DNA of 64,000 nt from Telmatactis stephensoni (Eukaryota > Cnidaria > Anthozoa > Actiniaria > Isophelliidae): NCBI GenBank assembly GCA_029948255.1, contig JALIZF010001873.1, positions 965,001 to 1,029,000 of the forward strand, written 5' to 3'. Each line of letters opens with the position of its first letter. The first letter of the stretch is position 1. Under the pieces are notes generated by a model that saw only the letters and a program-made list of their open reading frames with translations, was not told where the DNA came from and ran no database searches. Below, one piece after another: positions 2,212 to 61,185 of this stretch. The position numbers were made by a program, and so were the translations under genes.

Positions 2212-5200
2212 ATATCCTAGCCGACAACATTTGGCCTCCGTTTCCCATGATTGGCAATGTTTCACGTGCAACCAATCACATTGGAAAAGGCGCCGTCCAA
2301 TCTGATTGTGTTTACCAAAACACCCATCCTTGCGGTTCATTGAGGCCTGTCTCACAGGACATTATAAAAGAGAGAGTTACTCAAATAGATAGACTTCCTT
2401 TTAGACCTAGAGCTAGATATGTGTACAAGTCCTTAGAGTATAATAAAACAAAGCCTACAGCGAAGGAACTGTCTCGTCGTAGAGTTAAAGGTTCATCGCC
2501 AGCTCTTGTATAGAACCTACACGTTTGGACCTAGCAGTCCCTCGTAACAGTAGAGCTAAAATGAAGTACAAGGGTCAAGAGTAATACTCAACTTATCATT
2601 CAAACTTAACGTAACATCAACGTATCATTACTGTGTTTTTACCTATTTTGCTTCTACTATTTTATACTTAACTTAGTTTAGGTTTAATTGATTTATCTAT
2701 GAATATAGTTCTACCATCTTTATTTATCATTTTAGGTTTTCACCCATTTGTAGAGTATATATAGTTTGAGTGCCACTTGAAAATTATCTCACGATAAAGG
2801 TGTCGTCCTCCTTAAATAAAATAGTATTAGACATGACAATCTACCGGCCTTCCTTTCACAAGACTCCGTAGCAACGTATTCGCAGACGCAGAATCGTTTT
2901 TATCACATTATTGGTTTGAGAAATGAAGCAAGCAAGCAAGCACTGCTAATGAACAGTTGCTGATTATCAGTCTGCGTATACGTCAATTCTGCTTCTGCTT
3001 CTGCTTTTGCCCTCTTGAAAACCCAGAAGAATCTCTGAACTTAATCCATGTCCATGAGAGGATTCAGGGGCCGGGGGAGGGGGTGTTTGAGCGGGGGTGT
3101 CTGGTAACTATCCAACACCCATTTTGCAGCAAACCAATAATAATCTTAAACCTTTCCCTTAAATAAATATCTATCGTTACAATCTTTTTGCAACATGTCT
3201 CTGTCACCCCTTCATTTCAGAATTCCTGGAACCGCCTTTGTAGTCGTTGATTCTCGATTAAAAGGTGCACTTTTCACCTTCTCATTTGAAAATCAGTCAC
3301 ACTAGAACACTTTATTCATTAGAACACTTTATTCATTAGAACACTTTATTCATTAGTATAAATCTCACCTCTTTCACTTTAATTCTCAGTGCACCTTATC
3401 ATATCATCACCCATACCCTGATATCACCCACTATACCTTTCCACTAGACCTTTCAAAACCTTTGAATAAAATTAGGTAATTACTCTGCTTATCTTGATTT
3501 TCCCGATCTCTTACTGCCTGTTATTATCGCCTCTAACGAATCTTCAGTTTACTAGAATTTGTCGGCTATCTATCTTTAATCCCCTTTTATTATTTTTGAT
3601 GGTTCTTCTTGATAGCTTAATCCCTTAGTTGTGTATATAAATAACTTAAATAGTGATGTTTACAGTATAGTATAAAAAGAAGATTGAATATAGTAATTCT
3701 TTGTCTTTTCTATTATTCTTTTTTTTATTTTCTAAAAGATATCAACATGTCAAGTTACCTGACACGACGGCCATTAAATTCTTACATTCATTGTTCGTAA
3801 TAAAAAGGCCGACTAAAAGGGATTAAGGCTTGTTTTTGTACTTTTAGGCATGGTGTCTGAGAGGTGGTTTTGAATTTGTCCTTGGAAATCTCCATTCTAT
3901 CAGCAGGAATCTTTGTGTTTTAACTACGCAAATAAAAGGCTTTTTTTTTTAATATAGGACAACCGCGCTGTGGTCTACATAGTAAAGGTCCCTCACCAAG
4001 CTTTTATTGTTATTCATTAAACTCTTAAATTCAAAAACAGTTCATCAAGGTTTGTGGTCTGGATGTACCTGTTACATAATTGTACCATTTACATGCTATT
4101 TACATGTCATAAACAGAACTTATTAAAATGGCTGGATTTAAAAGCCATTTTAGCCACGCAAATATACTTACTTTGTATCGAAATCATTATAAAAAATCCC
4201 TTTATACATTGAGCTTATAAACTAATCGACGTGATAAAGGATAAAGCCACGAGGATGCCTTTAAGACGTATCGCACATACAACATTATTTAACATGGGAC
4301 ATTACCATAAATGACCATTGTTATAAGTAAAATCATCAACCACAGTGCACTGCTTCGGTTTGTTCACTGCATAAGTGGCTAGAACCATTCAGTGTAGCAA
4401 ATATCTACGAACAGAGAGCCAAGAAAGGACTTTATCTATTTTTAACACCCTAGAGGACAGGTGATATTGAAACTGTACTGACATTGTTACCGATATCTTA
4501 AAATTTATTTGCCTGTGGTCAGATTAAATTAGCAGTATTTTGGCATACAAATTCTCGTTCTGCTCTACGTGTGTCTGACGAATAGAGAGGTAAGAAAGGA
4601 AAAATATAATTTTGTTAACATTTAGAGTACAGCTAACTGATTCAAACTGTTACTGATATCTTACCATTTTATCTGTGTATGGTTAAGTTATATTACTACT
4701 GATTTTGAATATGGTTTAACGGCGGTGTGTGCAGAATGACTTCTAGTTCCTTCACTAAACATATAATGGTGCACGTGGTCAAATCTGACGAATAGATAAA
4801 TAGATATAGGTAAAATCCCTTCTTTTGAGAAAAAACAAAAACAACAAAAACAGTTATAAATAAGAAAATAATAATAAGCGGAGCTAAAAATAAGACATCA
4901 AACAGAACAAACACTTAATGAAACAGAATACAAGTAGATAGATAGAGTGACTGTGTAAGACCCCTACTGTTTCAATCTATTGCGGGGTGCACTTTTGTTC
5001 AATTGAAACCTTCACTCCAACGAATCGAAAAGACAATGCGATGTTATTCAGAGTAAGTCAACAGTCTTGGTTTCAGGATCTTGGAATACCGTGGAGATTT
5101 TCGCAACAAAACTGCTGCAATCGACCCAACCAACTAATGTTGTATTGTATTACAAACAAAAACAAAAAAAGAGAGAGAAAAGAAAGAATTGAATATGAAA

Positions 5201-5298
5201 TCGCCCCTGAAAATCACTGAGTTGAAATCTCTGCACTACTGAAAGCAAAAACTTAAAACAAAATAAGGAAAGGAGATGGAATACAAATAGCAAAGCAT
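2212..5298. other. AT-rich spacer without recognisable gene
   Basis: An open frame at roughly 2196-2513 starts inside the preceding MITE, has a low-complexity basic C-terminus and matches no family I know, so I do not call it. A small direct triplication of an ATTAGAACACTTTATTC unit lies near 3300-3356. The rest is AT-rich with no splice-bounded coding segment. Confidence 0.45.
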
Positions 5299-5514
5299 TA
5301 AAAATAAAATAAAATAAAATAAAATAAAATAAAATAAAATAAAATAAAATAAAATAAAATAAAATAAAATAAAATAAAATAAAATAAAATAAAATAAAAT
5401 AAAATAAAATAAAATAAAATAAAATAAAATAAAATAAAATAAAATAAAATAAAATAAAATAAAATAAAATAAAATAAAATAAAATAAAATAAAATAAAAT
5501 AAAATAAAATAAAA
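5299..5514. repeat. (AAAAT)n microsatellite
   Basis: About 43 uninterrupted copies of the pentamer AAAAT. Because five is not a multiple of three, all three minus frames stay open and translate as a five-residue F/I/L/Y pattern. These are artefacts and not proteins. Confidence 0.97.
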
Positions 5515-6069
5515 TATGCCACATATATAGCCATATGTCTGTATGCCATGTTTCAAAATGATACAGTATTTACGGAAACTGTGTAATCGCCAACTTGAAT
5601 AATAATTTTTTAGAAGAAAAATAAATATCGCGACTCTAAAACATACTTCTTCTCTTTATGTGGTCTGTTAGACTGTGAAAAAAACATGTACACTCGTTAA
5701 TTGAATTATTCAGAAAAAAAAACTGAAGTAAAAGTAATCATTACGAATCTGTGATTTCTTGGATGTCGACGTCACAGGCGTCATAATGCACAAAGGTTAT
5801 TATATTTCGTGCTTTTAGGGTTCACTAATTATGAATTTGCCGGGTTTGCTGTACACCCGTTAGAAATTATCCATTGTGTTTTAGCGTTTGTTATCAATCG
5901 TAAAGCCGACCGTCTTCGCAAGAAAAAAGATTCAATTCGTAATTCGTATGCAAATAGATTCGTGATTCTGTCATTAGTTTATCCGACCATCTTTTTAATA
6001 CTTCCTGTTCGGTTCTTCTATTAACTAACAAAAGACTATCAAACAGCATGCGAGTCAGCTATATCACCC
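5515..6069. other. Spacer, nothing recognised
   Basis: AT-rich sequence with no convincing coding frame or repeat. Confidence 0.4.
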
Positions 6070-10790: not shown

Positions 10791-13188
10791 CACGGGCGAT
10801 AGGATAATAATCATCTGAAAATTTACTTAAATAAAAAGACAGTATTTATCAATTACCTTGAATTACTGTTATTTTGCCTTTTTGTATTCCTCCCAACGTT
10901 TTAGAAAGCCAAATAGTCTTTTACAAGGCCCGTAACTTCTTTAAAACTCCAACCGATGCGTTAGAAATCCGTACGGTTCAACTGTAGCCAACGGTCTGTT
11001 GACGCGAACATGATATCCCCTCGCCAGTAAACGCGGTTTAATCATTGACAAAGGAAGCCTGGAGATGTTAAGAGACCAGGGTAGGCAACAAGCCCCGGTT
11101 CCATTGTTCTCTCGTCTTCCAATTATCGTAGTTCGAAAGTGACATTTGTGGGGGACAGTGATGACAGATTTTGCCCCTTATACAAACAACCCCAGCGCTC
11201 ACTGAACTTTACGTGCATGCATGCCTGGCCAAAGTCTTGTCAGCACCACGGTAAAGCAAACACAGACTCATTCCTTGTCAAATAGTTTTTCCGATCATCG
11301 CGAAATAACGCTCATTTCATGTCAAATAGTTAGTTTCTCCGATCATCGCGAAATAACGGTCAAGAAAAATAATGGTTTAAACACGGTTTAAAGAAGAGTT
11401 TCAGTGGCTTTTTGTACCATTTAACCCCGGGGGGTACTTGACCAGGATTTGGGTGGGGATTTTCCGCTGGGATCCTAAAACGGTTACCCTGTTTTTGACA
11501 GAAAAACGCAAAATACCATACCCTGTTTATGACAAAGTATAATAATTGCAGAATGTAATGTACTTACACAATGGTGTTGCGCGAACTCGCTCCTCATCAA
11601 CCCAGACAAAACAAAGGTTTTGGCCGTTGGAGTACCACAGCGCCTGAAATCCCTGCCTCCATTCTCATTAACACTACTTGGTAAAGACATCGAAGTTGTC
11701 CCAGCAGCTAAAGATCTTGGAGTTATCATCGACAAATGTCTGAACTACAACGAACATGTAACTAAAACCGCATCAAGCTGTTTCTACAAACTTAGTAGAA
11801 TCAATAGAATTAAGCACCTATTAGACACTAAGACTTTGATACTGTTAATTAGTTCATTTATATTCTCTTCATTATTTTATTGTTCTACCGTATGGAGTAA
11901 CACTACGAAAGCAAACAAAAACAAGCTACAATTAGTACAAAATTACGCAGCAAGAATCGTCCTTGGTCTAAGGAAGTATGACCACATCTCTGAAGGACTC
12001 AAATCACTTAAATGGCTAAACATCCAAGAAAAACTGTATCTAAATGATTGCATTATGTTACACAAATGTGTCTATGGAAATGCACCGCGATACTTATCCA
12101 ACAAGTTTGTACGAAGGAACAAGATACACAAAAGAAATACCAGGCAAAACCAAGACCTCGATCTACCAGTTTGCAGATTAGCAACGGGCCAACGAGCATT
12201 CACATACAGAGGAGCTAAAATGTGGAATTCATTGCCAAATGAATTAAAGTCTACAGAGCAAATAAAGATTTTTAAGAAACGTCTTATTAATAATATCATA
12301 GTATCTCGTTAGTATGTATAATTTTCTCTTTTTATATTTATATTCGAAATTTTTAAGAACTGTACAGTATATTTAGTATATTAGTATATTGTTGCTGAAA
12401 AGCCTTTTTAAGGAGCACAATAAAGTTTGTATGTATGTATGTATGTATGTATTTGTTTCTAATGTAAATGAGTTTCATAACGAGTTTGATGCGATCGTGA
12501 TCGCAGACAGATCGTTGCCATTGTGGCTAGCTAACGACTAAGGTTGATGAGAAAGCTGCTACCCTGGAAATGACAAGAAGCTCAAAAAATTGCAAAAAGG
12601 ATACCCTGTTTATGACAGGGAACTCGAAAAACCATACCCTGTTCAGCGGATCATCCCCGTATAGTAAATATATGAGAGTACCCCCCCCCCCCCCCCTCGG
12701 GCATTTAACGTAATCTGTGTTTGCTTTACCGTGGTGCTGACAAGACTTTGGCCAGGCATGCATGCACGTAAAGTTCAGTGAGCGCTGGGGTTGTTTGTAT
12801 AAGGGGCAAAATCTGTCATCACTGTCCCCCACAAATGTCACTTTCGAACTACGAAAATCGTCAGACGAGAGAACAATGGAACCGGGGCTTGTTGCCTACC
12901 CTGGTCTCTTAACATCTCCAGGCTTCCTTGTCAATGATTAAACCGCGTTTACTGGCGAGGGGATATCATGTTCGCGTCAACAGACCGTTGGCTACAGTTG
13001 AACCGTACGGATTTCTAACGCATCGGTTGGAGTTTTAAAGAAGTTACGGGCCTTGTAAAAGACTATTTGGCTTTCTAAAACGTTGGGAGGAATACAAAAA
13101 GGCAAAATAACAGTAATTCAAGGTAATTGATAAATACTGTCTTTTTATTTAAGTAAGTTTTCAGATGATTATTATCCTATCGCCCGTG
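10791..13188. mobile_element. DNA transposon with ~475 bp terminal inverted repeats
   Basis: Positions 10791-11266 and 12714-13188 are near-identical inverted copies, beginning CACGGGCGATAGGATAATA and ending with its complement. ATCAGAA is directly repeated immediately outside both ends (10784-10790 and 13189-13195), giving a 7 bp target duplication. The interior holds two tandem copies of a ~40 bp GATCATCGCGAAATAACG segment (11279-11360), CCCCGGGGGGTACTT-type repeat sequence, a LINE fragment and a poly-C tract (12681-12696). No transposase is present, so it is non-autonomous. A 7-8 bp duplication with ends starting CA would suit P- or hAT-type superfamilies, but that is only a suggestion. 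Confidence 0.85.
11572..12312 (+). pseudogene. 5'-truncated LINE reverse transcriptase C-terminal part
   Basis: The open frame enters at WCCANSLLINPDKTKVLAVG, the segment that closes the palm region in jockey/CR1-type reverse transcriptases (compare the WC..N.L.LN..KT pattern). It then runs to a stop at 12312. Downstream are the usual family C-terminal features: LGVIID, YCSTVWSN, QLVQNYAARIV, LYLNDCIMLHK and the final RGAKMWNSLPNELK block. After the stop come an AATAAAG-type sequence and a TATG/GTAT simple repeat at about 12428-12451, which looks like the LINE 3' tail. The endonuclease and catalytic YADD region are missing, so this is a dead 5'-truncated copy inserted in the surrounding TIR element. 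Confidence 0.88.
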
Positions 13189-24200: not shown

Positions 24201-24636
24201 AATGCCAGTGAAGTCACCAACAACCCATTGTTCACATCTTTCCTTTCCACACATCAAACAATACAAGGATAGATTTCCTTTAAAAGTAGAGTCATTCCAG
24301 ATCAAAAAAGGTTTTCCCTTCGCCAAGTGAACCCTATCTTTAGACTCGGTAAAATGGACTGAATGTATATCGCCCCCTTCCCGGCTTGTAACTAGCTAGC
24401 TAGGTTCAAATCATTAAACGTTTGTTCAATTCCTTTCTGGACGTTTGTATGGATAAGGTGACGATACTTAATAAAAATTGTTGTCTACTTTGTGTGATAG
24501 TTATGTGTACTAAACAAGTAGAGGTGTCTACCTTATGTATTAGAGAGGTGTCTGTGTGTTATACATACTAAACAAGTAGAGGTGTTCACCTTACAGGGGT
24601 GTCTAATTTGTGTCGTCTTTTCACAGGCATCACATC

Positions 24637-25539
24637 ATGAATAATTCTAGTAAGGAGTCACTTATGCCTCTACCAGAGGTGATTGCTTGGTGCTTCGCCT
24701 ACGTAACAGTTGATGCTCTAATCCTGATTGGCAATGCAATAACACTGGCTGTCTTCTACACTAATAAAAGACTACTGCGCATACGTGCCAATTACTTCCT
24801 GGTCAACCTGGCCGTTGCTGACTTGCTTGTTGGTATAATAGCTGTGCCGATATTTACATATTACTTGGGATTGTCCGGTAAACATGGTAGGCGAGTCTGG
24901 ATACAATACCCTTACGACATTGCTAAAGTCTTGGACATTTTTATAGGGTGTGCCTCCATATTTACGCTTACTATTATTGCCATAGAGAGAGCGTTTTCTG
25001 TGTGTCTTCCTCATATTCATCGAGGCATTGGACGCAACGCTTATTTCTACATGATCTCTACAGTGTGGATTTTGTCTTTTCTCATGGCTGTCCTACGATT
25101 CTTATTCCTCCACCAATTAATCAGCTTCAATGTATTCTTCTATTTTTTAATTGTTTCATTTTGTGCTTCGCTGATCTTCATTTGCATCAGTTATCCAGTT
25201 ATTGGAATACGAATGAAGTTTCGGTTTGCTAACGTGGACCACCACAGGAAGACCAACGATCACGATCGTCGCCTCGCTCTAATGTTGTTTATTGTTACGA
25301 CAGTGTTCATCTTCACATGGCTTCCTTTTCATGTGTTAAACGTGGTTTCATTCTTCTGCACTTCATGTCGAAATATTCCTAATGAACTGTCTTATATCAT
25401 TAAGTTACTTCACTATGCCAACTCTTGCGTCAACCCCATCATCTACTCGTATCTTGTACCGGAATTTAAACGAACGGTTTACAAGATATTAAGTCGTAAA
25501 ACCAGTGGGGGAGGACAATATGCTACGTCTCTTACATAA
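24637..25539 (+). CDS. Orphan class A (rhodopsin-like) GPCR
   Basis: Predicted 300-residue seven-transmembrane receptor at the plasma membrane, coding region in one exon. Visible class A landmarks are GN at 32-33 in TM1, LAVADLL at 58-64 (D62) in TM2, D100 in TM3 at the site of the amine-binding aspartate, ERA at 117-119 replacing DRY, W144 in TM4, P187 in TM5, WLP at 228-230 in TM6 and NPIIY at 266-270 in TM7. The N-terminus MNNSS has two N-glycosylation sequons. I start at the ATG at 24637. The frame is open a little further upstream, but TTTTCACAG at 24618-24626 looks like a splice acceptor, so a 5' noncoding exon probably precedes it. The usual TM3/ECL2 cysteine pair is absent: position 93 is Y and the TM4-TM5 loop has no cysteine. 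The ligand is unknown; D100 suggests amine-like receptors but does not prove it. Confidence 0.9.
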   Translation: MNNSSKESLMPLPEVIAWCFAYVTVDALILIGNAITLAVFYTNKRLLRIRANYFLVNLAVADLLVGIIAVPIFTYYLGLSGKHGRRVWIQYPYDIAKVLDIFIGCASIFTLTIIAIERAFSVCLPHIHRGIGRNAYFYMISTVWILSFLMAVLRFLFLHQLISFNVFFYFLIVSFCASLIFICISYPVIGIRMKFRFANVDHHRKTNDHDRRLALMLFIVTTVFIFTWLPFHVLNVVSFFCTSCRNIPNELSYIIKLLHYANSCVNPIIYSYLVPEFKRTVYKILSRKTSGGGQYATSLT

Positions 25540-30600: not shown

Positions 30601-31249
30601 AGATTTCTATAAATTTTGGCGCGTTTGCCCATGCAGTTCAAAATGGCGGACGAAAGCGTAAATTGGCTTATTGCTCTGCCTTGTGTTGAAAGGAGGTGTT
30701 TGGCGTTTATGTGTTAAGTGATATCTTGCCCTCCAGCCTTCATTTGACTATCACTGGCTTTCAAGTGACGTCACGGTAGCCATCTTCTATGAAATTCAGC
30801 ACAAGATTTGCCATTGCTCTGTTTTTTGGGCATTTAACATGACTGCCTTTCATCTATCGTTTCGTTCTGACTGGAGAATAGTTGAAACCTAGCAATAAAA
30901 ATAGTGTTACTCCTTGACGTGTCTCCGCATTTTGATTCGATATGACATCATCGTTGACCAATCAAAACACTGAGACAAGACACGGTACGGACTTCTTCAG
31001 AGTCATACAAAATTTCTATGCGCATGCCTTCTTAACTCTTGTTATTCACCCGGTAGCCATTCGTCCGGTAAGTACTTGGAGTATGCTAAGCCAATTGTAT
31101 GCAACACCATACATGTTTCAAACACCAAGTACTTAGCTTTCACCCTCTCGGTCATATTTTTTAATTTGAAATTTGATAGTCAATCTGAAAGAGGCTATCC
31201 ATGACGAATTTAAATACTGTCACGTGACCACCGAGCGGCCTTGATACGG
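30601..31249. other. Spacer left of the giant transposon
   Basis: No gene recognised. The segment ends in GATACGG followed by TTAA (31250-31253), the presumed target site of the next element. Confidence 0.4.
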
Positions 31250-31253
31250 TTAA

Positions 31254-33500
31254 CAATTCATGTTACGCTTACGCCAAATGCACATCTCCATACGTACCCT
31301 GCATAAGCATTATACCCCATGTGTACCCCTGTATACCCACGCATACCCTGTACACCCATGTATACACTGTATACCAGTGCATACCCTCTATACCCATGCA
31401 TACCCTGTACGTACACCAATGCATACCCTGTACACCCATGCATACCCTGTACACCCATGCATACCCTGTACACCCATGCATACCCTGTACACCCATGCAT
31501 ACCCTGTACACCCATGCATACCCTGTACACCAATGCATACCCTGTACACCCACGCATACCCTGTACACCCATGTACACACTGTATACCAGTGCATACCCT
31601 CTATACCCATGCATACCCTGTACGTACACCCACGCATACCCTGTACACCACGCATACCCTGTATATCTATGCATACCCTGTATACCAATGCATAACCTGT
31701 GCACCAATGCATACCCTGTACACCCATGCATACCCTGTACACCCATGCATACCCTGTATACCCATGCATGCCGTGTATACCCATGCATACCCTGTGTACC
31801 CATGCATACCCTGTATACCCATGCATACCCTGTACACCCATGCATACCCTGTATACCCATGCATACCCTGTATACCCATGCATACTCTGTACACCCATGC
31901 ATACCCTGTATACCCATGCATGCCGTGTATACCCATGCATACCCTGTACACCCTTGCATACCCTGTATACTGATGCATACCCTGTAGACCCATGCATACC
32001 CTGTATACCGATGCATACCCTGTACACCCATGTATACCCTGTACACCCATGCATACCCTGTACACCAATGCATACCCTGTACACCAATGCATACCCTGTA
32101 TACCCATCCATACCCTATACACCCATGGATACCCTGTACACCCACGCATACCCTGTATACCTATGTATACCCTGTACAACCATGCATACCCTGTACACCA
32201 ATGCATACCCTGTACACCAATGCATACCCTGTACACCCATGCATACCCTGTATACCCATGCATGCCGTGTATACCCATGCATACCCTGTACACCCATGCA
32301 TACCCTGTATACCAGTGCATACCCTCTATACTCATGCATACCTTGTACACCCATGCATACCCTGTATACCCATCCATACCCTGTACACCCATGCATACCC
32401 TGTACACCCATGCATACCCTGTACACCCATGCATACCCTGTACACCCACGCATACCCTGTATACCCAAGCATGCCGTGTATACCCATGCATACCCTGTGC
32501 ACCAAGGCATACCCTGTATACCCACGCATACACTGTATACCCCTGCATACCCTGAATACCTGTGCATACCCTGTACACCCATGCATACCCTGTATTCCCA
32601 TGCATGCCGTGTATACCCATGCATACCCTGTATTCTGATGCATAGCCTGTATACCCATGCATGCCGTGTATACCCATGCATACCCTGTACACCCACGCAT
32701 ACCCTGTATACCCAAGCATGCCGTGTATACCCATGCATACCCTGTGCACCAAGGCATACCCTGTATACCCACGCATACACTGTATACCCATACATACCCT
32801 GAATACCTGTGCATGCCCTGTACACCCATGCATACCCTGTATACCAATGTATGCCGTGTATACCCATGCGTACCCTGTACACCCATGTATACCCTGTATA
32901 CCCATGCATACCCATGCTTACCCTGTATACCCATGCTTATCCCTGTGTACCCATGCATACCCTGTATAGCCATGCATACTCTGTACACCCATGCATACCC
33001 TGTATACCCATGCATACCCTGTACACCCATGCATACCCTGCACACCCATGCTTACCCTGTATATCCATGCATACCCTGTACATCCATGCATACCCTGTAT
33101 ACCAGTGCATACCCTTTATACCCATGCATACCCTGTACACCCATGCATACCCTGTATACCCATTCATACCCTATACACCCATGCATACCCTGTACACCCA
33201 TGCATACACTGTATACCCATGCATACCCATGCATACCCCGTACACCCATGCATACCCTGTACACCCATGCATACCCTGTACACCCATGCATACCCTGTAC
33301 ACCCATGCATACCCTGTACACCCATGCATACCCTGTACACCAATGCATACCCTGTATACCGATGCATACCCTGTACACCCATGCTTACCCTGTGTACCCA
33401 TGCATACCCTGTATACCCACGCATACTCGGTACACCCATGGATACCCTGTATGCACATGCATACCCTGTACACCCATGCATACCCTGTACACCCATGCAT
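31254..33500 (+). repeat. Left terminal inverted repeat: 19 bp satellite array
   Basis: After ~75 bp of unique terminal sequence, the unit ATGCATACCCTGTAYACCC runs from about 31332 to 33498, roughly 114 units by length. Each unit holds the palindromes ATGCAT and GTATAC (or GTACAC). Variants such as ACGCATACC, CCAATGCATACC, CATGCCGTGTATACC and an inserted GTACGTACACC mark individual units and recur in order in the opposite arm. Nineteen is not a multiple of three, so frames on both strands stay open as 19-residue repeats; these are artefacts. Confidence 0.95.
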
Positions 33501-33673
33501 AGGCTTATATACCCATACATATTGAATTGTTTAAATCTGATAAGACATGATTGAACCATTCAAAAGGGATATTCTCAATTTTATTTTAATGCATGTTATC
33601 GAAGTTTACATATGACATTGCAAGCGGTTATTGGTAATCATTGTACATAATTTCTGAATTACTATTGCAAACT

Positions 33674-34300
33674 TTAATTACTAGATTTTTGAGGGAAAAT
33701 GTTTATGTTTAAAACTTGCCATTTAAAAGTCATGGTTGATATCGTTTTATTATTGTTATTTTTTGCTTTTGATTCAATGCTCTTCTTTTCTTTTTCTATG
33801 ATCAACAATGAATGTTTAAAAATAGGAAGGGAAGCTAAAATGGCAACACTATTTATGAAATCAACGATTGATAGATACCAATTCTTGCAAGTTATAACAT
33901 CACAAATCACTCCAGTTTTGCTTTTTGTGTGCGAAAGAATTGCATATAATATAAAGTACTCTAGTATGTTCATGTTTTTCTCTTTTGTCTTTTCGCCTTT
34001 TTCCTCTATAGAAAGCTTTGATCGCTTTGGCTTTATTGTAGATTTAATGTTATTTAGTCGTTTTCTTGATGTTCTTTTCTTTTTTCCCAGACTTGACAGC
34101 TCATTTCCACCACAACCGTTCTCAACACAATTTCTTGCACATTTGCATGTAGCCATGCACTTCCCATTTTTTTGTATACAAAGGCATCTGCTTTTGTAAG
34201 TACGTGTACTTTTTTTACCGTATTTCTTTTTTTCCCCACATCGGCATGGCTTCGATGGTATTTCTTTATAAGTAACTGAGGTCATCACTTTTGCCGTCAC
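33674..34300 (-). pseudogene. CXC (tesmin/TSO1-like) cysteine cluster remnant of the transposon protein
   Basis: The frame contains the spaced pattern CRCG, then KSRCLC, KCMATCKC, ARNC and NGCGG (roughly residues 18-65). This resembles CXC/CRC DNA-binding cysteine clusters and the cysteine clusters attached to several animal transposases. Downstream residues are lysine-rich, then hydrophobic and AT-driven, and probably not functional. It lies just after the OTU-like frame in the same direction but in a different phase, with an in-frame stop just upstream, so it was most likely the C-terminus of one long protein now broken by indels. Confidence 0.65.
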
Positions 34301-34356
34301 TTTTTCCTTAGGATTTTCATTAGGTTGCGTTTGTTTACAGTGGACATGTCACGGGA

Positions 34357-35016
34357 TTAAGTACATCGTAATGACCTGGTCCATTTGGATTGAAATGTAA
34401 TGTATTGACTCGATGGCTGTATCTGTTCAGGGGAAATAACGACGAATGGAGCCATATATAAAGGATTGAGTATAAACAACGGTATTTGTAAAGTATTAGC
34501 TATCGCTAACGGTATAAGGTCTCCGACAGCACCGGAAAATGTCCCCGACTCTCTAAACCGTTCCGCTTCTACAAATATATCTAGATAACTTGGAAGGAAG
34601 TTTTGATAAAACTCAATCCGGTCACCTTGTATTTCCTGCACAACCTTGTATCGTAAGTAACTGGCCATTTCATTTACACCGAAGGTTGTTTTAAACCCCA
34701 TGTCTTTAAGGTGTGCACTTAATGTATCATTGCTACTAAGCAAACTTGTTAAATGTGTGGCTACAGCTGTAAACAAGCAATTACCATCACCTTCAATTGT
34801 ACTTAATTCAAATCCCCATGCCGATGCTATACTTTGAATTCTTGTATCTATTTCCTCACATTCGGCTTGCGAGTCCTGCTGGCGATTGTCCTGGCTCGAT
34901 GCTTGCTGCGGTCGCTCAAAAATGGGCATGTCCCTGTAATTGAAGATTTTGCTACCCAATTTGCTATCGAGAAAAATAGCTAGCTTCAGCCGCTCAAGAG
35001 CATTGCGTATGATCAT
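34357..35016 (-). pseudogene. OTU-type cysteine protease domain of transposon protein
   Basis: The frame carries EGDGNCLFTAVA (D77, C80), the canonical OTU catalytic aspartate/cysteine block, followed by an OTU-like helical region and the FGAVGDLIPLA-like stretch (seen as FSGAVGDLIPLAIA). The catalytic histidine block GPGHYDV expected at the domain end is present at about 34365-34385 but in another reading frame, so a small indel separates the nucleophile from its histidine. OTU enzymes cleave ubiquitin-type modifiers. Fusion to a transposase suggests a role in protecting or processing the transposition complex, but that is speculation. This copy is inactive as written. Confidence 0.8.
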
Positions 35017-35024
35017 TAAATTAT

Positions 35025-36122
35025 CTATCTGTGATGCAAAAACAGAAGTGACTTTTTGGTCAATGTTTGTACCGCATGAAACAAATCTAACTTTACTTTG
35101 ACGTCGGGAAAAACACTAGAAAGTAGCTGTCGCCATTTACAGCAATTGCCAACATATATAACTGAAATTGGCTTCTTTCTTTCTTGTGAATATTGTGCAA
35201 GCGTTTCAAATAAGCATTTCACATCATCGAAACTTTCAGTCATTGTGAATTTCCATTCAATTACTTGGCCTTTCTCGTTCATTATACAAAATAGTGACGT
35301 GTACTGAGTTATCCAGGTTCCATCCTCTCTTTGAAAACCTATATTGGTTGCAGCTTTGAATGTGTGGTCACAGCTGATCCACTCTGGGGGTGGTATTGAG
35401 TTCCTAACTTTTTTGTAACGTCCTTCGTTTTTCAAAAATAATGCGAAATACACACTTTCAATGAAATCGTTGCTTGGAAAAGGAAGCGCATTTTTCTCTT
35501 TGAATAGTTTTAAACTGTCTATATTGTGTGGAGATTGTATTTCGTCCATCTTATCGGCCAAAAATCTCAAATACTTTGTTTCCAAAGTTTTCTCATAACC
35601 TTTCCTTATGATTTCCTCAACAGCCGATAAAGCTAATCCATGGTCAAGCATTTCTTCTATCTGTTTTTGGAGCTGTACAGTCATTCCAGACCTATACGAT
35701 AACACAAACGGCACGTGTCCCGGATAGAAATCCATTATTGTTTGTGTGCAGCATGACGATGGGATATTGTGCCCGTTGTCACATTTGTAAATTTTACTGA
35801 CAAAGAGCAATGGCCCTTCAGTATCGAGTATCAATCGAGGGTTATTCCTTTTAACTCTGCCGTTATTCCATTCCTCCTTTGATCCCCTCTGCAAATAAGA
35901 TGTGACTTTGTTGTCTAAACAAAGGTGACATTTCAGCTTCTTCTTGCCATGTCTGTAGCTTGACAGTTGCCCAATGGGATCAAAAAGTATGTATGGAAGC
36001 ATAACGTAGGAATCCTCGCTCTGTGGGTCCAGGGGAGCAGATGGAACAAAGATTGTTGGTAATTTGCCCTGGCATCTGATTAGACATGAGGTTCCATTTC
36101 TTCGTTTTCGTTGAGATACCAA
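35025..36122 (-). pseudogene. DDE-like transposase N-terminal two-thirds
   Basis: A 365-codon frame. An N-terminal zinc-binding pattern is visible (CHLC at 65-68, then C114 and CC at 124-125). A catalytic-core-like segment reads ISCDHTFK (D252), then VIYVGNCCKW (321-330), then VKLDLFHAVQ (343-352). The fold order resembles MULE/KDZ-type DDE transposases, in which an aspartate is expected where G325 stands. That change would inactivate the enzyme. The frame stops right after LDLFHAVQ, so the third acidic residue and insertion domain are missing. The OTU-like frame starts 8 bp further on in another phase, so an internal deletion or frameshift joins them. I infer a decayed autonomous copy; family naming is uncertain. 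Confidence 0.7.
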
Positions 36123-36549
36123 GACAAAGTTGATTCATTCGATTCCAAATTGAAGATAATCAGTGTAGTTGAGTTGAGATCCTCGATGAAAGTTAACCAC
36201 TAACTTTTCGAACTAAATGTAGACTTTGAGAATTCAATTCGTTGCGACTTCTAGCTTTCGAATTCATTTCTTTATTTGACGGTTACACGGTAAATTAATG
36301 ACGATAATAAGGCGTAGAATACAATGTGTAGACTATAATGGCGAAGTATAATGGTTCGAACTATGGAGAAATAAATGCCTAGAATTACCTTTTACACATT
36401 CATAAACAAGAAATATAAAAAAAAGGAAATACTTACAAGTTATTGTCGGAAGTACATCTTATCGTGTTACATTGTCGAACTCAACTGATTACTAATCTAT
36501 TCTAGGATGCTATAAATATGTTCCTGCTAAGGATCAAGGGTTGAGAGTA
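36123..36549. other. Transposon interior upstream of transposase
   Basis: AT-rich sequence between the transposase frame and the right satellite arm. It probably held the 5' region or promoter of the minus-strand transposon gene. No clear exon or promoter motif could be fixed. Confidence 0.4.
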
Positions 36550-38791
36550 ACAGGCATACAGGGTATGCATGGGTGTACAGGGTATGCATGGGTGTACAGG
36601 GTATGCATGGGTATACAGGGTATGCATCGGTATACAGGGTAGGCATGGGTATACACGGTATGCATCAGTATACAGGGCATGCATGGGTATACACGGCATG
36701 CATGGGTATACAGGGTATGCATGGGTGTACAGGGTATGCATGGGTGTACAGAGTATTCATGGGCATACAAGGTATGCACGGGTGTACAGGGTATGCGTGG
36801 GTGCACAAGGTATGCGTGGGTGTACAGAGTATGCATGGGTGTACAGAGTATGCATGGGTATACAGGGTTTGCATGGGTGTACAGGGTATGCATGCATGCG
36901 TGCAGGGTAAGCATGGTTATGCAGGGTATGCATAGGTATACAACGTGAGCATGGGTGTACAGGGCATGCATGGGTGTACAGAGTATGCATAGGTCCACAG
37001 GGTATGAATGGTTTTACAGGGTATGCATAGGTATACAGGGTATGCATGGGTGTACAGGGTATGTCTGGGAATACAGAGTATGAACGGCTATACAGGGTAT
37101 GCATAGGTATACAGGGTATTCATGGGCATACAGGGTATGCATGGGTGTACAGGGTATGTATTGGTGTACAGGGTATGCATGGGTATACAGGGTATGCATC
37201 GGTATACAGGGTATGCATCGGTATACAGGGTATGCATGGGTATACACGGTATGCATCAGTATACAGGGTATGCATGGGTATACACATCATGCATGGGTAT
37301 ACAGGCTATGCGTGGGTGTACAGGGTATGCACAGGTATTCAGGGTATGCATGGGTATACAGTGTATGCATGGGTATACACGGCATGCATCGGTATACAGG
37401 GTATGCATGTGTGTACAGGGTATGTATAGGTGCATTGGGTATGCATGGGTATACAGGGTATGCGTGGGTGTACAGGGTATGCATGGGTGTACAGGGTATG
37501 CACAGGTATTCAGGGTATGCATGCGTATACAGTGTATGCATCGGTATACAGGGTATTCCTTGGTGCACAGTGTATGCATGGGTATACACGGCATGCATGG
37601 GTATACAGGGTATGCATGGGTATACAGGGTATGCGTAGGTGTACAGGGTATGCACAGGTATTCAGGGTATGCATGGGTGTACAGGGTATGCATGGGTGTA
37701 CAGGGTATGCATTGGTATACAGGGTATGCATGGGTATACAGGGTAAGCATCGGTATACAGGGTATGCATTGGTATACACGGTATACATCAGTATACAGGG
37801 TATGCATGGGTATACAGGGATGTACTAGTATACAGGGTATGCGTGGGTATACAGGGTATGTTTGGGTGTACAGGGTATGCCTGGGTGTACAGGATATGCA
37901 TGGGTGTACAGGGTATGCATTGGTGCACAGGGTATGCATTGGTATACAGGGTATGCATGGGTGTACAGGGTATGCATTGGTGCACAGGGTATGCATTGGT
38001 ATGCAGGGTATGCATTGGTGCACAGGGTATGCATCGGTATACAGGGTATGCATGGGTCTACACGGTATGCATCAGTATACAGGGTATGCAAGGGTGTACA
38101 GGGTATGCATGGGTATACACGGCATGCATGGGTATACAGGGTATGCATGGGTGTACAGAGTATGCATGGGTATACAGGGTATGCATGGGTATACAGGGTA
38201 TGCATGGGTGTACAGGGTATGCATGGGTATACAGGGTATGCATGGGTACACAGGGTATGCATGGGTATACACGGCATGCATGGGTATACAGGGTATGCAT
38301 GGGTGTACAGGGTATGCATGGGTGTACAGGGTATGCATTGGTGCACAGGTTATGCATTGGTATACAGGGTATGCATAGATATACAGGGTATGCGTGGTGT
38401 ACAGGGTATGCGTGGGTGTACGTACAGGGTATGCATGGGTATAGAGGGTATGCATAGATATACAGTGTGTACATGGGTGTACAGGGTATGCGTGGGTGTA
38501 CAGGGTATGCATTGGTGTACAGGGTATGCATGGGTGTACAGGGTATGCATGGGTGTACAGGGTATGCATGGGTGTACAGGGTATGCATGGGTGTACAGGG
38601 TATGCATGGGTGTACAGGGTATGCATTGGTGTACGTACAGGGTATGCATGGGTATAGAGGGTATGCACTGGTATACAGTGTATACATGGGTGTACAGTGT
38701 ATGCGTGGGTATACAGGGGTACACATGGGGTATAATGCTTATGCAGGGTACGGATGGAGATGTACATTTGGCGTAAGCGTAACATGAATTT
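36550..38791 (-). repeat. Right terminal inverted repeat: 19 bp satellite array
   Basis: Reverse complement of the left arm. The outer part (about 38047-38787) reproduces the order of unit variants of 31258-31999 with only scattered differences, including the two inserted GTACGTAC units and the truncated GCGTGGTGTACAGG unit. The inner part is built of the same unit, but variant order no longer lines up, as expected if slippage and unequal exchange reshuffled the inner array independently. Confidence 0.95.
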
Positions 38792-38795
38792 TTAA

Positions 38796-39427
38796 CCCTT
38801 GATACCCAACCACTACTCGTTTTCAGTGCTCGCCTGTTAAAGTTTTACGTGCAGTTGTGACAGCTTGCTCGTTTTATTTCATGTGTCAGTCAAAGAAGAG
38901 ACACAACAGATAACATGTTGGTACCACTTCGTTAACTATAGGTGAAATTGTGTTATTGCTGCGAGTGAAGCGAGTAGCGACACTATTTGTGACTATGGAT
39001 TCCTGTGTTACGTACGACCGAGGTGGCCTAGGCCATTTGTTGGCTTACGATCTGGAAGTTTTGGCATGTAGGCAAGTAGGCATGTAGAGTGAACGATGTC
39101 TTGTGACATCATCGAAATATGCTTGAAATGATCGGAATGGGTGGTCAGCGGTAAATCACGATCGTTTGAAGTTAGAGTTGGTCTTGCTTGAGTTGTTTTC
39201 GAGCCAAGTTGTCATATATTGTTATTCATGCAAAATCCACTGCTTTATGTTCGTGAAAGTGTTCATCAAGGTTGCAAACTGTTTAGTGATCTTGCTCGGG
39301 GAAGACAATGCTCTTTTATGAGTTTTTCATCGCTGTTGTGTGCTCGCTGATGCTCGCATGAATCGAATCATGATCAAGACGATAAGTTGTATTCAATATT
39401 TTCCACTTCAAAGAGGTAAAATCTATT
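38796..39427. other. Spacer right of the giant transposon
   Basis: No gene-like frame. Adjacent to the TTAA at 38792-38795. Confidence 0.4.
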
Positions 39428-42244: not shown

Positions 42245-42644
42245 CCATACATTGCCTGTACCATTTGGCACATCAGCTTTCCATCAGTAGTTAAGTAAGA
42301 CCTTTGTCCTCACGGGAATCCACAGCTCAAAAAGACTATTGATTACATGTTTTTAACCTTTACTCTGACTATTAATAAGTCAAACTGCACGGCTTTGTGA
42401 ATGCTGGATGCTGATTGATTCACTGTCTTATGGTATATTGACTGCCTACTTGTGGGATTAATGACGTCACGAGGATGTGTTATTCTGAGTGTTTGTTTAG
42501 CTTGCATTTTAATAACTTTTGTGTGTGTTGGTATACCCGTCAAGCTTTAGGATCGGGAGTTCATAGTATGCCCAAAGCGTCTGCCCTGAGTCGGGAGACT
42601 GGACAAGTGGGAACGCAAGAAATATAGACTGGAATACAAGGCAG

Positions 42645-43655
42645 ACATGGCAGACAAGGCAGACGGGCAGACAGGGCAGACACGAATACAGGACAGACGG
42701 GCAGACAGGGCAGACACGAATACAGGACAGACGGGCATACAAGGCAGACACGAATACAGGGCAGACGGGCAGACAAGGCAGACACGAATACAAGGCAGAC
42801 AAGGGCAGACGGGAATACAGGGCAGACAAGGCAGACAAGGGCAGACGGGAATACAGGGCAGACAAGGCAGACAAGGGCAGACGGGAATACAGGGCAGACA
42901 AGGCAGACAAGGGCAGACGGGAATACAGGGCAGACAAGGCATGCAGGGCAGACAGGGCAGACAGGGAATACACGGGCATACAGGGCAGACAAGGGCAGAC
43001 GGGAATACAGGGCAGACGGGAATACAGGGCAGACAAGGCAGACAGGGCAGACGGGAATACAGGGCAGACGGGAATACAGGGCAGACAAGGCAGACAGGGA
43101 ATACAGGGCAGACAAGGCAGACAGGGCAGACAGGGCAGACAAGGCAGACAAGGCAGACAAGGCAGACAAGGCAGACAAGGCAGACAAGGCAGACAAGGCA
43201 GACAAGGCAGACAAGGCAGACAAGGCAGACAAGGCAGACAAGGCAGACAAGGCAGACGGGAATACAGGGCAGACAAGGCAGACGGGCATACAGGGCAGAC
43301 GGGCAGACAGGGCAGACAGGGCAGACAGGAATACAGGGCAGACGGGCATACAGGGCAGACAAGGCAGACAGGCAGACAGGCAGACAAGGCAGACAAGGCA
43401 GACAGGCAGACAAGGCAGACAAGGCAGACAGGCAGACAGGGCAGACGGGAATACAGGGCAGACGGGAATACAAGGCAGACGGGCATACAGGGCAGACACG
43501 AATACAGGGCAGACGGGCATACAAGGCAGACACGAATACAGGGCAGACAAGGCAGACAAGGGCAGACGGGAATACAGGGCAGACAGGAATACAGGACACA
43601 CAGGAATACAGGGCACACAGGAATACAGGGCACACAGGAATACAGGCAGGGCAGG
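42645..43655 (+). repeat. GGCAGACAA / GGGCAGACGGGAATACA minisatellite
   Basis: About 1 kb of units mixing a 9 bp element (GGCAGACAA, most regular at 43135-43255) with longer GGGCAGACGGGAATACA and GGCAGACACGAATACA forms. Strongly purine-rich on the plus strand. Four long overlapping frames on both strands (CLPCLPV- or GQTRQT-type repeats) arise from the repeat and lack any domain. Confidence 0.93.
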
Positions 43656-55377: not shown

Positions 55378-58300
55378 CTAGCTATCGCTAACGGTTTCTC
55401 TACCCATAGCCTTTGGAAGTACCGGATTACAATTATCGCGGTAACATTTTGCGGTGTACGCGTTTCTCCGTACGACCATTCGGTGATAGAAAAACAAAGA
55501 TCTGTTCTTGGGCATAGCACAGAAAATTTTTTTAAACCTCGCGGCCCAAACAAAGGTTTGCTCTGCAACAGGCGTGTTCAGTTGTGGAAACTTTTCCTTG
55601 AGAGGCTCAGCACTGTAGTTTTGTTTACAATGGCGTCCCTTGTGGTTTTTCATATGGAGCCTATCAATAACTTTTGTTATCTTAAGCCACATTTGGTCAA
55701 ATGGTGGTTCAAGCGGGAGTGGTTTTTTGGCCACTTTTAACCTATCTAGGTTGCACATGTTATCATATGACAACAAAAACTCTTCCCAGCCACTTTCAGG
55801 AATATCTTTTAACTTATCAAGAAGGAAGTCTAACGTGAGAATAAATACTTGTCCAGGGCCTTCAGACCTGTTATATAAAACAAACACGATAGACAATTAG
55901 CCAGGAGTGAAAAACAGTTTTGTATGTCAATTAGGTCGTAGTACACAAGTACACAACTCAGATTCCGTCCACACGTATTCGTTTTGAAATGAAAACGCAT
56001 AGAAGTATTTGCTTCCACACGAATCCAGTGACCGTTCTCGAATCGTTTTAGGGCCGTCCACATGAACATATTTTCTTTTGAAAACGAATACTTTTCGAAA
56101 ACACTAAACAATGGTGAACGCTTCATTGAACAACCATTTTCGAAAGTATATATGCGTTTTCGGATGTCCACACGAACTCGAGACGTATCCACTTTGGAGA
56201 GCGTTTTCAGCAGTAAATTGTTCGCGACACTTGAATTTCGTAATTTTTTAATCGAAATTCGCTAAATTAACATGTCACGAAAATTTCATGTCATAGCGTT
56301 CATAACTTACACATATAGAGGATTCCATTTATCGATATGACCTCCTCCTCTAACAAAATGGAAAAGTCCTCGGGACCACTTGCGAAGAGACTTTTGCTTG
56401 TCACCCGTCTCTTTGTTACAAGGAACACTTGATTCCTCGGGATCATCTACTATGCCACTGATTATGTCTTTATGGTTGATAAAGAATTTTTCAGTTCCTG
56501 CAAGATACACAAGCAAAGCATTTACCTTGTAATAATATATTGAATATTTTAGTTGCTATCGAAACCGTACCAGGATGTTAATAAAGTAATGAAGGGAAAT
56601 AAGGGTTTTTTGGTTCAGATTTGGAGGCCATACATTTAGAAATGAAACATATTGCAGAATGATATTGAAAGAAATTAAAGTTAAGCTTTTTTGGCTCTCG
56701 GCAATGGCCGTAACTGACTAAAAGAAGCTACAAATGCAGTAAACAAATAATGCGTCTGATCCTTCTTTTTAATTCTTATAAAAAATATATAATCTAACCT
56801 TGCTCCTTAGGAACGGTCGAATGAGTAGAGTTCGCCTCCGGTAACGCTGCAGCCACCTCGTCGATTTTCTCGACATCTTGCAAAGTCAGGCTTTTGGGCT
56901 CTTCTTCTATAAATAATACAATGAATATTTAGACGACCCGTTGATAAAACATATCGATCGGTAACTTATCAACCTTATTTGGTTCAAAACCATACAGACA
57001 AACACTCCCTTCTAGACATTTCGCTATTACCGAAAACGGAACAAATACGGCCTTAAACTCTAAATGCTATAATGCCAACACGAGGAACATAAAATTACTG
57101 AGATACTATTCCCCTATAAGCCTTTACCTTAATAACGTTTCATACCTCTATCTATACCAGAATCCTCTTCAATAATCTTTCATATTCAAAATTAAAATGC
57201 CCTGGAGAATACAAATACTATATTCTTAAATTGATGAACAATAGATACTCCAAAAGGATTGTGGTACAAAGAGAGGTATGAAACGTCATATTGCGTGCTA
57301 AAGGCTTATTGAGGAATCTTGCATGCATACCCGCGCTTTCCCGAAAGCTGCATTTACAATGATATTTTATGTCTGTGCAAACAATTACTGAAATTCTATA
57401 ATGCTGCTTCTGATATCAAGCCGTTTAGCTGACTTGAACACACGGGACTCTCGTGAGTAGGTGAACCCTCAAAAGGACTTGACAGTGAATTCGAGTTGCT
57501 TCATTTTTTAAATCCCGAACAAAGAAATGTTCATCATAATAATAATGTCATACAATAGTAAGATAACAGCGATATTTAAAACATATTTTGCATTACACTG
57601 CTTCTCTCAGTTATCAAGGAAACGAATGAAAATCTAGTTGGTTTGAACGTCGATTTGAACCTGGTGGTTTGTGCTTTTACAGAAAAAACATTTTTTTTTA
57701 TTGAGTAAAACCTGCCTAATTCTTACCATTTCGTATTAAAGTAAAGCGAGGAGCTAGAAACATTGCTTAGATTTGGTCAACATAATAATCCTTTATTTGT
57801 TTAAGCAGGTTGGATATCTGGCAGCTTTCGCTGATGTGGACCTGCTGCCCCTCACACTCACTACCACTACATTTCTTATTTTAGCACACAACACTCAACT
57901 CACATGTTGATTTTTATGGAGGGAGGAAAACCGGAGAACCCGGAGAAAAACCCTCGCGGCAAGGGAGAGAACAACACATCAAACAAACTCAATTCACATC
58001 TGGTCACAGCGACGCTCGAACCAGCGAACCCTTGACCGCTAGACCACAGTGGTGAAAGACGACGCGTTAACAGCGTACGCCACCCATGCCACCCCTTCAA
58101 AACTATATTCAAAGAACTCAAACCGTAAGTAAGACCCTATGATTATTCCTGAGAGGTAATTTCCAACGGATTTCCCTACCCAGATATTGTAAATGTTGAT
58201 TGCATAAGGTATTTCATCTTATCACATGTCACTAGAAGTCATGGCTTACGTGTGACCTACAGGCTAAGTACACGTGAACCAGATCGTGACTTCTTGACTG

Positions 58301-60765: not shown

Positions 60766-60896
60766 ATTGAGACTCCTTCTGTGTGCCTACTAGCTTTAAT
60801 CTACTTATAGAGGAAAGTGTCAAGTGTCATGGGCAGACACTAGAGGCAGACGCTTTTGGCGTAATCCTATTTCTTGACTCATTTGCTTTTTATGTG

Positions 60897-61185
60897 CGTA
60901 GTCAACTTTAACGTGCGTAGTCACCTTCTACCTGCGTAGTTACCTTCCACGTGCGTATGTCACCTTTAACGTGCGTATTTACCATTAACATGTGTATGTC
61001 ACCATCCACGTGCGTAATTACCTTCCACTTACGTATGTCACCTTTAACGTACATAGTTACCTTCCACGTGCGTACCTATGTGACTTTTTAAGTGCGTAGT
61101 GACATTTAACGTGCGTATGTCACCTTTAACGTGCGCAGTTACATTTAACGTGTGTTTGTCTCCTTCCACGTGCGTGTTTCGCCCT
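60897..61185. repeat. ~20 bp degenerate tandem repeat 5' of the KDZ-like gene
   Basis: About 13 units of the type CACGTGCGTAGTTACCTTC, alternating with GTATGTCACCTTTAACGTGCG forms. Each has a CACGTG or AACGTG core followed by CGTA. It starts about 130 bp upstream of the predicted start codon. It could be a promoter-proximal minisatellite or a subterminal transposase-binding array. Confidence 0.8.

Follow-up and report, generated by a model that had tools for sequence, protein, structure and literature searches.

An OTU-bearing Mutator-like transposon of Telmatactis stephensoni with terminal inverted repeats built of 19-bp satellite arrays, and related families with similar array spacing

In the FB-NOF element of Drosophila melanogaster, tandem units of 10, 20 and 31 bp form the arms on either side of a gene like those of Mutator-like elements (MULEs). 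FB-NOF, which is not known to carry an OTU domain, resembles in its arms and gene the element described here. The latter is a foldback-type transposon of 7,550 bp located at 31248-38797 of a 64,000-nucleotide stretch of the cnidarian Telmatactis stephensoni [GenBank assembly GCA_029948255.1, contig JALIZF010001873.1, positions 965,001 to 1,029,000], the whole of which is referred to as the window (C67:965001-1029000 in the assembly of 483.5 Mb and 1,782 contigs). Satellite DNA makes up 4,457 of the 7,550 bp (59%). The family to which it belongs inserts with a target-site duplication (TSD) of 8 bp, once 9 bp, its terminal inverted repeats (TIRs) consist of a short conserved terminus followed by a tandem array, and the length of the array varies from copy to copy. 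The reading preferred here, with a probability of about 0.64, is that these are cut-and-paste MULE/IS256 transposons in which transposase and OTU domain are fused, and that the arms would serve as helically phased arrays on which the transposase would dock.

Several described systems share some of these properties, and the comparisons that follow draw on portions of the papers cited. Tm1, a Mutator/Foldback family of root-knot nematodes, has TIRs of mostly 14-bp tandem units outside a MULE transposase, and resembles the present family in its short-unit foldback TIRs, in unit numbers that differ between the two ends and in its non-autonomous classes, with a TSD of 9 bp [PMC3169594]. However, Tm1 has 1-9 consecutive units per TIR against ∼7-273 here and a Phantom-type transposase with FLYWCH, and OTU is not mentioned in the portion of the Tm1 description cited [PMC3169594]. 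Tetris of Drosophila virilis likewise has tandem repeats in long foldback TIRs and alleles that differ by one unit, produces TSDs of 8-10 bp and is said to seed satellite arrays [PMC4079207]. The Tetris unit is ∼220 bp, and according to the same excerpts a transposase was not found in Tetris and its repeats also form longer satellite arrays, whereas here an array lacking a terminus was seen at one locus (C574/C620) [PMC4079207]. Rehavkus-1_TC is MULE-like, with 164-bp tandem repeats in its inverted termini and a 9-bp TSD; Rehavkus elements differ in having a PHD finger, arthropod and annelid hosts and mostly 5 and 8 consecutive monomers, and OTU is not given in the passages cited, a separation that is by description and not by sequence [PMC10218199, PMC6446971]. 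The table entry for MuDR-6_HM (MULE group 14, Cnidaria), on which this comparison is based, lists 'Ovarian Tumour Gene', which is the point of likeness, but gives its TIR as none and does not indicate a TSD [PMC6446971]. In Galileo, a foldback element of the P superfamily, the TIRs are likewise long and internally repetitive, reaching 4.7 kb in one copy; it differs in its P-type transposase with THAP and in the ∼140-bp units of the D. willistoni copy [PMC3688188, PMC4168063].

The preliminary description, a short account made from the sequence alone, named foldback elements and some MULEs as having tandem repeats inside long TIRs, but knew of no described family with arms almost wholly of a 19-bp unit around an OTU-bearing transposase. 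The novelty has to be narrowed further, as the general kind is known from Tm1, Tetris, Galileo and Rehavkus-1_TC, and so is an OTU-bearing group of cnidarian MULEs. In the open-licence literature, covered mostly by abstracts, no account was found of satellite-armed OTU MULEs or of an array period shared across families, and the spacing shared across split OTU-MULE families appears to be new.

The 131-bp left end of the element gave 37 matches in the assembly, most of them starting at GGTTAAC, 7 bp to the left of AATTC. Because most other copies share these bases, the ends were set at 31248 (GGTTAAC...) and 38797 (...TTAACC); the transposon had previously been placed at 31254-38791, and its true ends lie 6 bp further out on each side. 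Identical copies of an 8-bp TSD CTTGATAC are found at 31240-31247 and 38798-38805. The inverted ends share AATTCATGTTACGCTTACG, and as initially reported ∼75 bp of unique terminus precede each 19-bp array. The left terminus (31248-31326, + strand; GGTTAACAATTCATGTTACG...) is common to other copies genome-wide, and the right terminus (38719-38797, - strand) is identical to it in 80 of 83 bases. Tandem arrays were called by Tandem Repeats Finder, which gave 116.0 copies of the 19-bp unit CCCTGTATACCCATGCATA in the left arm (31327-33521, + strand) and 113.4 inverted copies in the right arm (36556-38718, - strand), in agreement with the earlier estimates of about 114 copies per arm and sixty per cent satellite. 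The commonest 7-mer of the left arm is spaced 19 in 58 of 82 gaps. A TTAA beside AATTC on both sides in the window had hinted at a TTAA duplication of the Kolobok or piggyBac type; this was rejected because in other copies GGTTAA lies inside the element and the 8-bp TSDs lie outside it.

The outer left arm (31255-31954, + strand) is near-identical to the outer right arm, with 694 of 700 columns the same. Identity then drops to 79-93% in the next 100-column blocks and to 71% in the block leaving the array. Off-register alignments of the two arms reach 83.6-85.1% identity, and the inner blocks are close to that. The arms in the window are not a single long perfect palindrome, and the very large hairpin that had been foreseen is supported as near-perfect for the outer 0.7 kb only.

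Copies with the same termini occur elsewhere in the assembly, which removes one of the doubts raised in the preliminary description, and they differ in array copy number. Fourteen two-ended copies were recovered, including C82, whose right end came from a motif scan. C1231 and C215 are 99.8% identical including their flanks, in opposite orientation, and were therefore taken as two haplotypes, giving 13 distinct loci. Exact TSDs are present in 10 of the 14 copies, of 8 bp in nine and 9 bp in C1045, and are absent from C1231, C215, C416 and C441 (7 of 8 bases alike in C441). When left and right flanks of different copies were paired as a control, the match never exceeded 4 bp in 182 pairings. 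TSDs of 8-11 bp are expected for MULE/IS256 elements, and those of the window family fall in this range. The TSDs imply past mobility and, taken with the conserved termini, point to cuts by a transposase; the prediction that the element seeds arrays at new sites is supported by these ten insertions. For one flank, L015:500-805 (C664), the first ∼175 bases of which are a dispersed repeat, no empty-site allele was found among the 40 of 285 candidates scored.

Two-ended copies range from 1,542 to 12,148 bp in length and from 16% to 93% in satellite content, the highest being in C56. Of the 28 arms, 25 gave an array, of ∼7 (C416) to 273 (C50) units, and thereby the long tandem-repeat TIRs of variable length that characterise foldback elements; the arms without one are the right arms of C1231 and C416 and the left arm of C215. 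A non-autonomous group is formed by C72, C353, C246 and C416, which have in common an unrelated core containing a 172-bp repeat. Single or worn ends were seen at C272, C185, C562, C563, C220, C280, C899, C132 and C143. In C82 (L026 748-4621) the right unique terminus extends for only ∼19 bp before the array, yet the copy has an exact 8-bp TSD GAACAATG. This shows that most of the 75-bp terminus can be absent, which is compatible both with docking on the arrays and with arrays that are passive. The short terminus of C82 is also a natural hint at the minimal end. Besides its two outer ends, C246 (L017 789-7834) has one more inside, at 4213; next to it an array of 18/27-bp units GTAGTCTGG occupies 1.77 kb (4214-5980), which suggests a nested or duplicated structure.

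Turnover within the arrays can be followed in C563, which differs from the window by 3 substitutions in 1,407 bases of the right flank and 6 in 2,200 bases of the right arm. Three indels, of 19, 19 and 38 bp, set the two right arrays apart, with a further 3 bp where the sequence was cut. Whole units have therefore been gained and lost between these two haplotypes. Over bases 100-400 from the end, arm-to-arm identity is 0.99 in the window, 0.997 in C246 and 0.896-0.94 in 8 other copies (the arm pairs of C1231, 0, C215, 0, and C416, 0.516, were unusable and C82 was left out), and the best match between different copies over the same bases has a median of 0.907 over 78 pairs. As identity is raised in the window and C246 only, conversion between arms is at best occasional. 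A 49-base pattern covering 2.6 units matched the genome 606 times in forward and 510 times in reverse orientation, and its reversed control had no match. Among the 100 of 1,116 matches listed, the satellite was on 16 contigs, 14 of which also have a terminus match, and in these the arrays are mostly captive in elements. On C574 and C620, which share 99.4% identity over 5.2 kb, there is an array of 90 copies for which no terminus was recognised, and one C272 satellite match lies 6.5 kb from the nearest terminus.

The coding core between the arms is on the - strand. It consists of a MULE-like DDE segment of 365 aa (35025-36122; Pfam MULE E=0.0075, under cutoff), an OTU-like segment (34357-35016; GDGNCLF) that is frame-shifted ahead of GPGHYD and has a weak match to Pfam C65/OTU, also under cutoff, and an open frame for a cysteine-rich, CxC-like C-terminal transposase segment (33677-34300) with no Pfam match. 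The names given to the DDE triad and the CxC motif are our reading and not the label of a tool. The triad is incomplete in the window copy: its second catalytic Asp is replaced by Gly (YVGNCC), and ∼622 bp including the NERLHR region, with the Glu, have been lost at 35050-35051, a segment that is present in C563 and C50. At the other end of the gene, 36062-36500 (- strand) belongs to a different dispersed repeat, which over the whole segment is 95-98% identical at 9 other loci, and the 5′-end of the window transposase frame has therefore been replaced by the fusion of two repeats. Loci with this repeat include C294:66793-67233 and C69:866410-866850. C50 retains the triad motifs CDHTF, YVDNCC and NERLHR, with a frame break behind them, and C563 has the same Gly as the window and frame breaks of its own. 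None of the five core-bearing copies read (C67, C563, C50, C413 and C82) is intact. The OTU-bearing transposase core of the preliminary description is borne out, though it is defective in the window copy. With a catalytic Asp changed to Gly, the Glu region deleted and the frame broken, that copy is on its sequence a dead member that cannot be autonomous.

In the relatives P0033 and P0035 the DDE and OTU parts are fused in one protein, and in C294 the two lie in one uninterrupted frame of 852 codons (Pfam OTU 19.4 bits against a cutoff of 23.3). The OTU part of the relatives matches OTUD3 by sequence profile (E=7.5e-8). A profile search of solved structures gave 3 matches, OTUD3 and two others, all over the OTU part and none of them a transposase chain. 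In structural comparison an OTU fold was found among the families listed, with the best coverage at 606-809 (OTU). The family has an RNase H-like DDE domain related to Mutator/IS256 and an OTU domain in a cnidarian MULE. No Pfam match to a PHD finger was found in the window segments or the relatives, and viral contigs searched with the DDE segment gave 6 pattern matches and no relatives.

The C50 protein has 80 matches in its own genome. Flanks of 14 related loci outside the window family were examined, those of C202, C142, C1075, C62 and C385 for 1.6 kb upstream only, and 8 of them, as a raw count, carry arrays 450 bp or more in length on a base period of 9.5-10 bp or a multiple (10, 19, 20, 30). 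Inverted arrays are on both sides in C534 and C248 (19-bp unit CTACTGTAATCCCTGTTAT; C534 represents F2) and in C294 (20 bp). An array was seen on one side in C586, C185 and C216 (F4; 10/19/29 bp), C427 (F5; 10/20/30 bp) and C202 (F6; 30 = 3 × 10 bp). The spacing of the commonest 7-mer is in accord: two families have mainly 19, another has 20, and three show 9, 10 and multiples. In pattern searches of the genome the C534 unit had 661/664 matches and the C294 unit 238/267, and the reversed controls had none. TSDs of 8 bp flank C534 (CAATAACT) and C21 (CAGTTTGT), the latter representing F3 with the array and terminus of C294. The termini of three families (GGTTAACAATTCATG, GGCTTGTACTTCATG and GGTTAGTATTTCATG) are similar and show the motif GGYT-R-A-TTCATG. 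When 25 proteins were placed in a tree, members with arrays fell on both sides of the midpoint split, the midpoint root being for drawing only. The array trait requires 2 changes, and 500 of 500 shuffles were as low, the label 'no array seen' having come from partial flanks. The tree does not settle whether satellite arms had one or more origins.

Under the docking reading, each unit, one to three helical turns long, would be a putative docking site for the DNA-binding part of the transposase. This is suggested by analogy with Galileo, the tandem TIR repeats of which hold transposase binding sites that are bound by the THAP domain [PMC3688188, as excerpted]. The arms would thus line up a large number of sites along the same face of the helix, which may aid synapsis and end recognition. 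Unit number would rise and fall by slippage or unequal exchange, gene conversion may at times carry units from one arm to the other, and loss of coding sequence would produce non-autonomous and in places almost pure-satellite copies that could be moved in trans by a related transposase. A wider proposal, which we advance tentatively and rate a little below even odds, is that an old OTU-MULE lineage requires helically phased arrays in cis. On this view the spacing (9.5-10 bp × 1, 2, 3) and a motif near GGYT-R-A-TTCATG would persist across families that have diverged to as little as 35% identity in protein, each family having its own unit sequence in place of the old one, as if arrays and the DNA-binding part co-evolve, each new family founding a new satellite.

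A number of observations weigh against docking arrays of this kind. Six of the 14 related loci are without a long array on a multiple of 9.5/10 bp; C142, C62 and C385 have no array in the 1.6 kb upstream, C1075 has only 149 bp of a 9-bp unit, the period in C1092 is 82 bp, with subunits of 9 bp, and in C401 two frames are separated by a 22-bp array. The array is on one side only in F4, F5 and F6, and ∼2.6 kb from the frame in C586 and C216. Both ends and a TSD are available for three families only, F2 and F3 being represented by one copy each (C534 and C21). The right end of C21, GGTCAGTATTTCATG (GGTCAG), and the left end of C50, AGTTAATAATTCATG (AGTTAAT), depart from the terminal motif. The left array piece of C563, a contig that starts inside the left array, is out of register with that of the window (71%), the Pfam MULE scores are under the curated cutoff, and arrays with a 9-bp base or a 19-bp period also occur away from such elements (42636-43638 and 60894-61175) or nested (C246).

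The chief rival holds that the arrays are passive, the interior of the TIR being free for minisatellites formed by slippage or unequal exchange, with a transposase that needs the terminal bases only and a period set by the mutational process. The ∼40-fold range of array lengths and their change by whole units fit this well, as do the 3 of 28 arms with no array, the ∼19-bp right terminus of C82 beside an 8-bp TSD, and the existence of other tandem arrays in the genome, three of them over 400 bp elsewhere in the window (one with a 9-bp base) and one of 18/27 bp inside C246. We nevertheless consider it the less likely of the two, given the near-equal spacing in different sequence at 8 of 14 related loci, the periods of 4, 8, 17, 63, 153 and 172 bp in several other arrays near elements, and the origin of all three array-less arms from copies without an exact TSD (C1231, C215 and C416). 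The long inverted arms could instead act mainly as hairpins or substrates of ectopic recombination, with mobility arising from recombination and not from a transposase working on the ends. Outer arms that are 99% identical over 700 columns, and the lack of exact TSDs in C1231/C215, C441 and C416, would suit such a foldback mechanism, but it is very improbable, since 10 of the 14 copies have exact TSDs of 8 or 9 bp, the termini are conserved and the inner arms are only ∼85% alike. Misassembly of the arms as a fold, a concern raised in the preliminary description, is scarcely credible. Although the evidence comes from assembled contigs alone and the left piece of C563 is out of register, the 14 two-ended copies lie in different flanks, 10 of them with exact TSDs, a second contig carries the same right arm and right flank, and a second family has inverted arrays around its own core with its own TSD.

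The origin and spread of satellite DNAs is an old question. In this one genome, several related transposon families have short-period satellites of their own, three of them in both arms at TSD-marked insertions, and a spacing that is nearly the same among families with different repeats suggests a function of the repeats in the element, as opposed to junk. If the spacing reflects docking, selection on a transposon end would create satellites that are then scattered through the genome. The fusion of OTU to the transposase also raises the question of whether ubiquitin is removed by these transposons from proteins of their own or of the host.

Among the more distant relatives, C401 (L047 2864-8022) has a DDE-like frame of 863 codons in which the catalytic motifs are seemingly replaced (GHFF, TPQCCK), followed by the 22-bp array and then a cysteine-rich frame, and is possibly a domesticated or decayed relative. 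Elsewhere in the window, 42636-43638 is a 1-kb array of ∼9/17-18 bp units ACAGGGCAG that is possibly a stray arm of another family; a motif scan of the window found no GGYT..TTCATG terminus besides the two ends of the element. A degenerate 19-bp array GTGCGTAGTCACCTTTAAC of 14 copies, with a 39-bp dimer and no recognised terminus, is located at 60894-61175. An inverted repeat of 476 bp (10791-11266 and 12714-13188, 98.7% identical) surrounds a fragment at 11533-12309 (+ strand) that is reverse-transcriptase-like on our reading of the frame. An open frame at 55381-55896 (- strand) presumably resembles part of a Kyakuja-Dileera-Zisupton type transposase, and an intronless frame at 24607-25536, which we take to be like a rhodopsin-type receptor, is the clearest host-gene-like frame in the window.

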